Source: DAOVGU01 sp030637775 [NCBI: bacterium] (GTDB taxonomy: Bacteria > Ratteibacteria > UBA8468). Taken from it: DNA of 12,937 nt. The notes beneath the pieces were generated by a model. It was not told the origin of the DNA and ran no database searches. It saw only the letters and a program-made list of their open reading frames with translations. The number at the start of each line of letters is the position of its first letter. The first letter of the stretch is position 1. The stretch lies in NCBI GenBank assembly GCA_030637775.1, contig DAOWFY010000048.1, positions 1 through 12,937 of the forward strand, read 5' to 3'. The translations under genes were made by a program, and so were the position numbers. Shown piece after piece: positions 5,645-8,565 of the stretch.

Positions 5645-6141
5645 TGGTTTTAAAGGGAAGGGTTCATAAATTTGGGGATGATGTCAACACCGACTATATC
5701 ATTTCAGGAAGGTATAAGTTCAGAACGTTAAATATGGATGAATTAATAGCCCACCTCTTTGAGGATATAAAACCAAATTTCTCTAAAGAGGTAAGAAAGA
5801 GAGATTTTATCGTTGGCGGTAGGAATTTTGGTTGTGGCTCCAGTAGAGAGCAGGCGCCATTGGTGATTAAACAGAGTGGAATAGCTGCCATTTTGGCAGA
5901 GTCATTTGCGCGAATCTTCTTTCGCAATTGTATTAACGTTGGTCTTTTAATAATTGAGTGCAATACCAAAATGATCAATTCCGGGGAGAAGTTGGAGATC
6001 AATTTGGAAAAAGGTATCATCAGAAATCTCGCCCAGAAAAAGATATTGAAATTCAAAAAATTACCCGAGATTATGGTTCAGATTCTTCAAGAAGGGGGAT
6101 TGACTCCGTATCTGAAGAAGAACAAAAAGTTTAATGTATAA
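5644..6141 (+). CDS. leuD: Aconitase/3-isopropylmalate dehydratase small subunit
   Basis: This 165-aa protein is the swivel-domain subunit of a two-subunit hydro-lyase of the LeuCD/HacAB/aconitase group. It interconverts tricarboxylate-type isomers once joined to a [4Fe-4S] large subunit. Seen motifs are KFGDDVNTDYIISGRY (9-24), the conserved GGRNFGCGSSREQAP (58-72), and ILAESFARIFFRNCINVGL (83-101). The substrate loop reads GRYKFRT rather than the plain YLRT often associated with isopropylmalate. Specificity is therefore uncertain: isopropylmalate, citrate/isocitrate and homoaconitate are all open. The large subunit is not in the window. The gene overlaps the following dehydrogenase by eight bases, so the pair probably acts in sequence: dehydratase product to oxidative decarboxylation. 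It appears to be translated from a leaderless message. Confidence 0.85.
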   Translation: MVLKGRVHKFGDDVNTDYIISGRYKFRTLNMDELIAHLFEDIKPNFSKEVRKRDFIVGGRNFGCGSSREQAPLVIKQSGIAAILAESFARIFFRNCINVGLLIIECNTKMINSGEKLEINLEKGIIRNLAQKKILKFKKLPEIMVQILQEGGLTPYLKKNKKFNV

Positions 6142-7213
6142 GATTACTCTTGTACCGGGGGATGGAATTGGGCCAGAGATAGCCAAGGTGGCACGAGAGT
6201 GTATTGATCGTCTTGGTTTGCCCATAACCTGGGATTTTCAGGATGCGGGAGAGACCGCCATCAAGAAATATGGCACACCTATTCCAGAAACTCTCCTTGA
6301 TTCTATCAAAAAAAATAAGGTCTGCCTGAAGGGTCCGATTACAACCCCAATCGGCAAAGGATACCGCAGTGTTAATGTTGCTTTACGTAAATCCCTGAAT
6401 CTCTATGTAGGCTTGAGACCTTTTAAGTCTCACAAAGGAGTCAGATCAAAATATCAAAATATAGATTTGGTAGTGATGAGGGAAAATACCGAGGATCTTT
6501 ATTCCGGCATTGAATTTGAGAGAGGGAAGAAGGATACACTGGAGTTTATCGATTTTATTAAGAGAAGAAGGAAAGGAAGGATTCCATTAGATTCTGGCAT
6601 TAGCATTAAGCCTATCTCAGTTACCGCTTCGGAAAGGATTGTAAGGTTTGCCTTTGAATATTGTAAAAAAAATAGGCGCAAAAAAGTGACGGCAGTTCAT
6701 AAGGCAAATATTATGAAATTTTCTGATGGCATTTTTTTAGAGGCCTCCCGCAGAATTAGCCAGAGCTATCCGGAGATTGAATATGAAGAGAGGATTGTTG
6801 ATAATATGTGTATGCAACTAATTCAGAAACCGGAGAAGTACGATGTTTTAGTAATGCCAAATCTCTACGGTGACATCATCTCTGACCTCTGTGCGGGTCT
6901 GGTAGGTGGTTTGGGTATGGCTGCGGGTGCAAATGTTGGTGAGGATTGTGCTGTCTTTGAGCCAACCCATGGCAGTGCCCCTAAATATAAGAAAAAAAAT
7001 AAAGTTAACCCTGCAGCGATGATTTTAGCGGCGGTTTTGATGCTGGAATATTTAGGGGAGGTGGAACCATCCAGAAAACTGGAAAAAGCGTTGGCAGAAG
7101 TAATCAAAGAGGGAAGGTCTGTTACTTATGACCTGAAGGAAGAAGGGGATCCTTCGGTAGTAGGCACAAAGGAGATGGGAGAAGCCATTATAGAAAAACT
7201 CAAAATGACATAA
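6134..7213 (+). CDS. icd: Isocitrate dehydrogenase-like beta-decarboxylating dehydrogenase
   Basis: This 359-aa enzyme belongs to the isocitrate/isopropylmalate/homoisocitrate dehydrogenase family, which oxidises and decarboxylates a 2-hydroxy acid with NAD(P) and Mg/Mn. The chain opens with LVPGDGIGPE. R85, R95 and R116 are the substrate arginines; Y123, K190, D223, D247 and D251 are the catalytic and metal residues. RSVNVALRK (78-86) supplies S79 and N81, matching S113 and N115 of E. coli Icd, which recognise isocitrate; LeuB enzymes differ there. APKY (282-285) and V291 match the E. coli NADP-binding K344, Y345 and V351, whereas NAD enzymes usually have APDI. The equivalent of R395 is E336, so the NADP signature is incomplete. 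I infer isocitrate as substrate and probably NADP as cofactor. A LeuB or homoisocitrate role is less likely. It overlaps leuD by eight bases and has no obvious Shine-Dalgarno. Confidence 0.82.
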   Translation: MYKITLVPGDGIGPEIAKVARECIDRLGLPITWDFQDAGETAIKKYGTPIPETLLDSIKKNKVCLKGPITTPIGKGYRSVNVALRKSLNLYVGLRPFKSHKGVRSKYQNIDLVVMRENTEDLYSGIEFERGKKDTLEFIDFIKRRRKGRIPLDSGISIKPISVTASERIVRFAFEYCKKNRRKKVTAVHKANIMKFSDGIFLEASRRISQSYPEIEYEERIVDNMCMQLIQKPEKYDVLVMPNLYGDIISDLCAGLVGGLGMAAGANVGEDCAVFEPTHGSAPKYKKKNKVNPAAMILAAVLMLEYLGEVEPSRKLEKALAEVIKEGRSVTYDLKEEGDPSVVGTKEMGEAIIEKLKMT

Positions 7214-7277
7214 TCGGCTGCAAAGCAAGCTTTGCCACTACAGGAATCTGTAGTTGCCGAGCTTGCTCGGCTCGGCT
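7214..7277. repeat. Three-hairpin composite palindrome before purA
   Basis: Directly after the dehydrogenase stop come three palindromes in 52 bases: GCAAAGC-AA-GCTTTGC (7220-7235), ACTACAG-GAAT-CTGTAGT (7237-7254) and GCCGAGC-TT-GCTCGGC (7256-7271). The whole is also one large imperfect dyad centred on GAAT: the 24-base arms 7220-7243 and 7248-7271 agree at 19 of 24 positions. Four of the five differences are paired changes that keep both outer hairpins intact. TCGGCT flanks it on both sides (7214-7219, 7272-7277). TCGGC at 7214-7218 can also pair with GCCGA at 7256-7260, which would compete with the third hairpin. It could be a REP-like mobile repeat or a regulatory RNA for purA. Confidence 0.75.
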
Positions 7278-7293
7278 TTGTTAACTTTTAATT

Positions 7294-8565
7294 ATGGTTA
7301 AAGTTGTAGTAGGAACCCAATGGGGTGATGAAGGGAAAGGAAAAGTTATTGATTATTTAGCCAAAGATTGTGATATTGTGGCACGGTATCAGGGAGGAGC
7401 CAATGCGGGACACACCGTCATCACCAATAATAAAAAGTATATTTTTCATCTTATTCCATCCGGGATCCTTTACCCGGATAAGATCTGTATTTTGGGTAAT
7501 GGTGTAGTTGTTGACCCCGCTGCTTTGCTTTCCGAAATCTCTAATTTAAAAAAAGAAAAAATTAAATTAAACAAAAGATTTTTCATCAGTGAGAATCTTC
7601 ATCTCACTCTTCCTTACCATAAATTGCTTGATCAAATTGAGGATAAAAAACGGGGAAGGGGGAAATTAGGGACTACCGGTCGGGGAATTGGCACCACCTA
7701 TACCGACAACTATGCTCGCTTGGGGATCAGGGTTGTTGACTTCCTTAATGAGAAGGTGTTTCGAGAGAAATTAAGGGTAAGCCTGAAACTGAAGAACTAT
7801 CTCCTGAAAGAATACTATGAAGAAAAAGTTTATAGTTTAGAGAAAATTTCAAGAGAATACCGGGTCTATCGGAAGCAAATAAAAGGATATGTGATCGATA
7901 CCTCCCTTTATCTTAACCAGGCGATTAGAAAGGGAAAGAATATCCTGGCCGAGGGGGCGCAAGGAACCTTTCTGGATATTGATTTTGGCACCTATCCTTA
8001 TGTCACCGCCTCCAATCCTATTGCCGGGGGTGTCTGCACGGGATTGGGAATTGGGCCAACAAAGATAGATAAGGTGATCGGTGTTGCCAAGGCTTATACC
8101 ACCCGGGTGGGAAAAGGTCCTTTTCCCACAGAATTTAAGGATGAATTTGGAGAAAAGATCCGAAGGTTAGGTAATGAATTTGGGGCGACTACCGGAAGAC
8201 CAAGGCGATGTGGTTGGTTTGATGCTGTTTTGGTAAAACAGGCCGCCATTGTTAATGGTTTGAGCAGCTTAGCCGTAACCAAACTGGACGTTTTAAATAG
8301 TTTAGATAAAATCAAGATTGCAGTTGGATATCGCTACCAGAGGAGAAAAATTAATCGATTCCCCAACTCTTTTGAAGTTTTTTCTCATTGCCAGCCTATC
8401 TATGAAGAGGTGCCTGGCTGGAGGAGGGAGCTTTCCGGAATCAAAAACTATCGAGACCTTCCCAAAAAAACTAAAAATTATTTGAAAAGAATTGAAGAAC
8501 TAACAGAGGTAAAAATTTCTCTCATTTCTACCGGCCCCCAACGGCAGGACACCATATTGTTGTGA
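7294..8565 (+). CDS. purA: Adenylosuccinate synthetase
   Basis: PurA joins IMP and aspartate using GTP to give adenylosuccinate, the first committed step from IMP to AMP, in the cytoplasm. The 423-aa chain is full length. It opens with GTQWGDEGKGK (7-17), whose D12 is the catalytic aspartate. NAGHTV (37-42) carries the catalytic H40, and then come KLGTTGRGIGTTYTDNYAR (124-142), AEGAQGTFLDIDFGTYPYVT (219-238), GATTGRPRRCGWFDAV (297-312) and TKLDVL (329-334, guanine recognition). Nothing is missing. The ATG sits at the normal family start but has no Shine-Dalgarno; TTAACT lies seven bases upstream, without a -35 at the right distance. The three-hairpin element between 7214 and 7277 separates it from the dehydrogenase gene, so expression may depend on read-through of that structure. 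Confidence 0.97.
   Translation: MVKVVVGTQWGDEGKGKVIDYLAKDCDIVARYQGGANAGHTVITNNKKYIFHLIPSGILYPDKICILGNGVVVDPAALLSEISNLKKEKIKLNKRFFISENLHLTLPYHKLLDQIEDKKRGRGKLGTTGRGIGTTYTDNYARLGIRVVDFLNEKVFREKLRVSLKLKNYLLKEYYEEKVYSLEKISREYRVYRKQIKGYVIDTSLYLNQAIRKGKNILAEGAQGTFLDIDFGTYPYVTASNPIAGGVCTGLGIGPTKIDKVIGVAKAYTTRVGKGPFPTEFKDEFGEKIRRLGNEFGATTGRPRRCGWFDAVLVKQAAIVNGLSSLAVTKLDVLNSLDKIKIAVGYRYQRRKINRFPNSFEVFSHCQPIYEEVPGWRRELSGIKNYRDLPKKTKNYLKRIEELTEVKISLISTGPQRQDTILL

Follow-up and report, generated by a model that had tools for sequence, protein, structure and literature searches.

What is the palindromic sequence that lies between an isocitrate dehydrogenase-like gene and purA at positions 7214-7277 of this 12,937-nucleotide stretch (the window), a structured RNA that acts on purA or a copy of a mobile repeat? 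We conclude, with a probability of about 0.87, that it consists of two short GTAG-tagged REP units joined tail to tail as a heterodimer, which inserted between the two genes in this lineage.

Anatomy of the element at 7214-7277

The upstream gene, idh (6134-7213, forward strand), is an isocitrate/isopropylmalate dehydrogenase gene (PF00180, E 4.8e-102), and its TAA stop codon at 7211-7213 directly adjoins the element; the first stem starts 6 nt past the stop codon. The downstream gene, purA (7294-8565, forward strand), is an open reading frame for adenylosuccinate synthetase (PF00709, E 2.4e-184). Read directly from the sequence, the element has three hairpins, each paired in 7/7 positions: hairpin one at 7220-7226/7229-7235 with an AA loop, hairpin two at 7237-7243/7248-7254 with a GAAT loop, and hairpin three at 7256-7262/7265-7271 with a TT loop. 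This anatomy is real and beyond chance. Amongst 5000 dinucleotide shuffles of the 80-nt intergene, 4816 have no perfect 7-bp hairpin, 183 have one, one has two, and none reaches the observed three; the folding z-scores against shuffles are -5.35 as RNA and -4.19 as DNA. The three perfect hairpins and the larger 24-nt dyad described in the initial annotation are confirmed, and so is its description of the two arms (7220-7243 and 7248-7271), which differ at five positions, four of them forming two matched pairs within the outer stems.

Two GTAG-tagged REP units, set tail to tail, make up the element: (GCAAAGC hairpin)-CTAC...GTAG-(GCCGAGC hairpin). Unit 1 (7219-7242, reverse strand) reads GTAGTG followed by the 7-bp stem GCAAAGC, a TT loop and GCTTTGC, with the GTAG tag at 7241-7238. 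Unit 2 (7249-7272, forward strand) reads GTAGTT followed by the 7-bp stem GCCGAGC, a TT loop and GCTCGGC, with the tag at 7250-7253. In a covariance-model search of the window's own genome the two units score 37.8 and 38.1 bits, each being one of the 29 arms from which the model was built. Both have the GTAG tag beside a short perfect palindrome, which is the arrangement (GTAG beside a palindrome of 20-50 nt) that characterizes GTAG REPs. Of the three side-by-side hairpins, the middle one pairs as perfectly as the others and is not an independent stem: it forms where the tags of the two units, CTACAG and CTGTAG, pair with each other, with the paired tags ACTACAG-GAAT-CTGTAGT at 7237-7254 marking the tail-to-tail join.

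TCGGCT is found exactly on both sides of the element, at 7214-7219 and 7272-7277, as initially reported. On the right, the TCGGC that ends the arm (7267-7271) is repeated at 7272-7276 and followed by TTTGTT at 7277-7282; comparison with other tail-to-tail copies identifies 7272-7282 (forward strand) as a 5-nt internal repeat with its tail, and the TTTGTT tail is common to other copies of the CGAG-type arm. The left copy (forward strand) is absent, by eye, at other tail-to-tail copies.

A dispersed family of GTAG-tagged repeats

A blastn search with window positions 7190-7300 against the window's own genome (E<=10) returns 24 matches including itself. Most of them are further arms of a single repeat, located on other contigs, but the four at the end of the list (L021-L024) are unlike the arms. 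Read from its GTAG end, the repeat unit is GTAGT-N-(7-bp stem)-TT or TC-(7-bp stem). We built the covariance model from 29 distinct arms picked for the GTAGT tag and perfect stems, and because of that choice the invariant GTAG and the 100% paired stems of the model arms are circular. The model finds 59 matches at E<=10 in the window's genome (1.397 Mb, 83.5% complete), with at least 48 arms at E<=0.01, a high dispersed copy number as in GTAG REPs. Many dispersed copies were the test that the initial annotation proposed for a mobile REP/BIME-type repeat, and that suggestion is borne out. Six of the seven stem pairs occur in several complementary versions, and cells with changes on both sides number 61 where shuffling gives 17.6; the pairs changed on both sides and the further pair types are not above shuffles (115 and 224 of 500 shuffles reach them).

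Distinct neighbours among the scanned loci include 10 tail-to-tail (GTAG inside), 26 head-to-head (GTAG outside) and 12 same-direction arrangements, counts that take in sister-family and GGAG-tagged units (a GGAG or GTAGG tag occurs in 1/10 tail-to-tail and 6/26 head-to-head cases). REPs are therefore found paired in inverse orientation, as in BIMEs. A GCARAG-type unit is joined to a GYCGAG-type unit, with varying spacers, in 8 of the 10 distinct tail-to-tail pairs (the idh-purA copy included), and in 7 of these 8 (again with the idh-purA copy) the CGAG-type arm is followed by a T(T/A)TGTT tail. The stems GCAAAGC and GCCGAGC are each also found in intact units elsewhere. Since both stems are intact in other units and most tail-to-tail pairs join the two subtypes, the apparent compensatory changes in the idh-purA element are the difference between subtypes. 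The earlier claim that compensatory changes preserve the local stems while the long-range match decays is thus better explained by a heterodimer, and the case illustrates how two repeat subtypes can mimic compensatory RNA evolution when a single sequence is read.

For genomic placement, we used 55 arms (the 59 model matches minus the four weakest, E 1.8 to 8.7), and the assignment is approximate because genes were mechanically called ORFs of at least 100 aa. The arms form 28 clusters, of which 18 lie between co-directional genes, one between convergent and two between divergent genes, two have no gene called on one side, and five are within an ORF, each at most about 65 nt from the end of the called ORF. 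The family is mainly extragenic, between co-directional or convergent genes, as GTAG REPs are, and 15 of the 28 clusters overlap a gene 3' end or sit within 15 nt of one.

Arm counts across genomes may be low in the larger scans, which use stricter filters. At E<=0.01 we find at least 133 arms in G001, from the same genus, at least 48 in G002 and at least 94 in G003, both from the same family, at least 90 in G008, and a few in G004 (3), G011 (2) and G019 (2). The covariance-model scan finds no arms at that threshold in 53 of 61 genomes. In a class-wide scan of 35 genomes, largely the same set, 8/35 are positive at E<=0.001. Nine named genomes were hand-picked among 80 purA loci, and five of them have matches, one Stahlbacteria genome carrying at least 86 arms. 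In Stahlbacteria, at L085:2869-2929 upstream of purA, we observe the arm GTAGTGGTCGAGCTTGCTCGAC, which is also present in the window's genome, so a distant group has REP units identical to those here. The best purA match in a named genome is 63% and Omnitrophota account for many of the nearest named matches, a comparison from which records very near the window may be absent. The abstract of PMC2817692 calls more than 100 copies usual; the 48 of the window's genome fall short of that, and G001 has 133.

The idh-purA junction and the alternatives

The gap between idh and purA is 80 nt in the window versus 18 palindrome-free nt in G003, whose purA and idh genes are 85% and 82% identical to those of the window. 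We collected 30 purA loci from relatives, one of which is the window itself and one of which is untestable; none of the other 28 has an arm within 160 nt upstream, and relaxing the search to any GTAG-tagged perfect stem of at least 6 bp in the same 160 nt still leaves the window as the only positive. The short G003 junction and the 28 loci without a unit indicate an insertion and not a conserved purA leader. The idh-purA junction allows such a presence/absence comparison. Amongst named purA loci (80 fetched, 66 testable), 65 have no unit within 160 nt upstream. The exception is L085 (Stahlbacteria), where a separate pair lies 71 nt ahead of the purA match. In the scan of relatives and named genomes together, one locus (L129) covers 155 of the 160 bases. 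The L085 pair is the lone result that favours a link to purA and a partial counter-example; we take it as a coincidence in an arm-rich genome. A conserved leader RNA would be expected to recur at this position, and the tally is 0/28 relatives and 1/66 named loci. The exact pre-insertion sequence was not found, as the G003 junction has diverged and the same-genus G001 has neither an idh nor a purA match.

Side observations concern the same region in relatives. G001, although rated 93% complete, matches neither purA nor idh at the thresholds applied. The idh-purA gaps of G008 (L115) and G004 (L117) are 96 and 84 nt long and are filled by other palindrome-like sequence, in G004 a GTAG followed, by eye, by an imperfect palindrome of another sequence. 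The junction may thus accept such insertions repeatedly, as a tolerant landing site.

The position of the element before purA, its strong RNA fold (the z of -5.35 given above) and a terminator-like site at 7256-7276 with the tail TTTGTTAACT all agree with a cis-acting RNA switch or attenuator, in which 7214-7218 pairs with 7256-7260 at the expense of hairpin three and controls transcription into purA. The pair upstream of purA in L085, a member of another group, points the same way. TCGGC (7214-7218) can indeed pair with GCCGA (7256-7260), as the initial annotation stated, but the attenuator-like switch built on that pairing is not supported: terminator-like sites are at shuffle level (4 found versus a mean of 4.6), no Rfam match appears at E<=1 across the window, and the same structure is found beside many other genes of the genome, just as the genome of L085 has its own 86 arms. 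The lack of a Shine-Dalgarno sequence before purA is correct here, but purA of the element-free G003 also has none, by eye. With the unit missing within 160 nt upstream of purA in 28/28 other testable relatives and 65/66 named loci, the proposal of a regulatory RNA kept only upstream of purA is not supported, and we consider a purA switch very unlikely. The exact TCGGCT on both sides would instead suit a MITE of the DNA-transposon type, which a different transposase would have moved while duplicating a 6-bp target. A direct duplication should then flank each copy, and amongst 10 tail-to-tail pairs inspected by eye TCGGCT occurs at the window copy only. The TTTGTT that follows the right TCGGC recurs after the same arm elsewhere, and the G003 junction, diverged as it is, has no TCGGCT. 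The left TCGGCT is probably not a target duplication, because it is not seen at other tail-to-tail copies, and a MITE origin seems very unlikely. A dedicated purA attenuator, a target-site duplication and a purA riboswitch are not supported.

A different proposal, compatible with an insertion origin, is that the REP has been retained because it works on idh, by stabilising the 3' end or by braking translation, and is no passive insertion. The first stem lies 6 nt past the stop codon, more than half of the clusters (15/28) are within 15 nt of or overlap a gene 3' end, and in E. coli translation is lowered by REPs that lie less than 16 nt beyond a stop codon, according to a passage of PMC12306157 that cites its ref. 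17. The element is absent at the same gene in G003, however, and tolerance of insertions in short intergenes yields the same placement bias, so that we regard a retained function as possible but doubtful. For the inserted REP pair, the effect on the cell would be that of a generic strong hairpin 6 nt past the idh stop, with no dedicated purA switch; such a hairpin could stall ribosomes, protect the idh 3' end or expose it to cutting, or weaken coupling to purA. Taken together, the interpretation in the initial annotation is partly supported.

RAYT-type genes and comparison with known systems

A PF01797 profile search of the window's genome finds two Y1_Tnp genes only, both of the inverted-repeat type (L025:925-1863 and L026:1468-2412, 312 and 314 aa). 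Both end in inverted GGGGTCAG repeats, and their C-terminal parts resemble DnaA at a score under the Pfam cut-off. When the G003 RAYT is used as a protein query, a further gene appears at C119:7785-8237 (reverse strand), 62% identical to the query (61-62% over comparisons), which probably encodes a REP-associated tyrosine transposase: it matches NF047646 with E 8.5e-18 and 64.6 bits, under the curated cut-off of 80. The genes on either side are presumably lepA and lepB. H76, H78 and Y132 are invariant across six aligned RAYT-type proteins; we take H76/H78 to be the HxH motif and Y132 the tyrosine kept in the window genome's own candidate. Four hairpins of the GTAGGGG type surround this gene, of which one departs from the pattern at two positions, and no clear GTAGT arms are found around it. 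These hairpins belong to a sister REP family, GTAGGGG-YNNGATTYATCNNR-CCC, often in head-to-head pairs with 2-nt spacers, which is present at 44 places in the window's genome (up to 2 mismatches) and at 190 in G008; the reversed pattern has no match in the seven genomes searched, the window's included. At least two sister REP families share one genome.

The G003 RAYT (L194:1456-1914), near a lepA-like end, scores 86.2 bits with NF047646, over the cut-off of 80, and its best sequence match amongst solved structures is TnpA-REP 4er8 (E 1.6e-5). A single GTAGT arm lies 20 nt beyond its stop codon, and two more are within the coding sequence. RAYT genes adjoining REPs of the same family as the idh-purA units are seen in G003 and also in G061. 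Within the taxonomic family the RAYT and the GTAGT family are thus directly linked, but the window genome's own RAYT has GTAGGGG hairpins as neighbours and is linked to that sister family instead. GTAG hairpins adjoin a HuH-type gene in the window's genome, G001, G003, G004 and G061 (in G001 and G004 partly by eye). G002 has 48 arms yet no match to the G003 RAYT, in a genome that is 77% complete, and G008 has 90 arms yet a weak partial match (E 4e-5). The element was most likely placed by a single-strand transposase. By analogy with what is proposed for known REP/RAYT systems, a HuH-type RAYT would cleave a single strand at the GTAG-tagged hairpin, copying or moving the unit, and we infer that the idh-purA units were mobilised by such an enzyme; a passage of PMC8266576 describes the dissemination mechanism of REPs as remaining to be worked out.

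Two further observations concern hairpins and transposase genes. The RAYT of G061 (Stahlbacteria; L225:1495-1911), 46% identical to the G003 protein, has one GTAGT-family hairpin inside its coding sequence, which in the protein alignment falls no more than one residue away from one of the two intragenic hairpins of G003. The other G003 hairpin coincides with a 7-residue in-frame stretch; three of five relatives lack exactly that stretch, one lacks 8 residues and one lacks 2. It is conceivable, if unlikely, that the RAYT gene carries its own target in the coding sequence as a self-limiting or self-marking device, in which the enzyme would bind the gene or mRNA that encodes it and so curb REP copy number. 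In G002, a head-to-head REP pair at L164:499-608 is bounded by inverted GGGGTCAG...ACATTTGACAAA-type ends that enclose no transposase gene; the pair may sit inside a miniature TIR element or be carried by one.

These results show GTAG REPs alongside RAYT-type genes in an uncultured lineage that has been little studied. We found no open-access paper on Omnitrophota and repetitive extragenic palindromic elements, and the word 'Omnitroph' is absent from the main text of PMC3733652. The separate inverted-repeat system has a counterpart in the TIRtrons and TIRYTs of section 16 of PMC3733652: the two 312-314-aa Y1_Tnp genes have inverted GGGGTCAG ends that fit the GGGGWSAS motif given there, but those ends do not flank the idh-purA element. 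The RAYT/TnpA-REP genes and REPtrons, as far as PMC8266576 describes them in the relevant passages, resemble what we see in having a HuH-type gene beside GTAG hairpins, and in perfect short palindromes like those of group-3 REPs; the difference is that the window genome's own RAYT carries the sister GTAGGGG family, and cognate pairing is putative. BIMEs and REPINs, which the same source describes as inversely oriented REPs paired through a short linker, share that arrangement with the idh-purA element; it differs in being one lone pair, made of two stem subtypes whose GTAG tags are 8 nt apart, with no tandem array. A close likeness is to the GTAG super-family of REPs (Di Nocera et al. 2013, PMC3733652). 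In the portions concerned, that paper describes a terminal GTAG, stems mostly of 6-9 bp (7 bp here) and a 2-nt TY loop, stem subtypes with complementary changes, head-to-head and tail-to-tail pairs including heterodimers, and a location mostly between co-directional or convergent genes, downstream of genes. The host here is unlike those in being an uncultured lineage probably near Omnitrophota, going by its nearest named purA matches, and the likeness is judged on the described features. The idh-purA element is a genuine if unremarkable GTAG REP pair, and it adds a further lineage to those known to carry this familiar kind of repeat.
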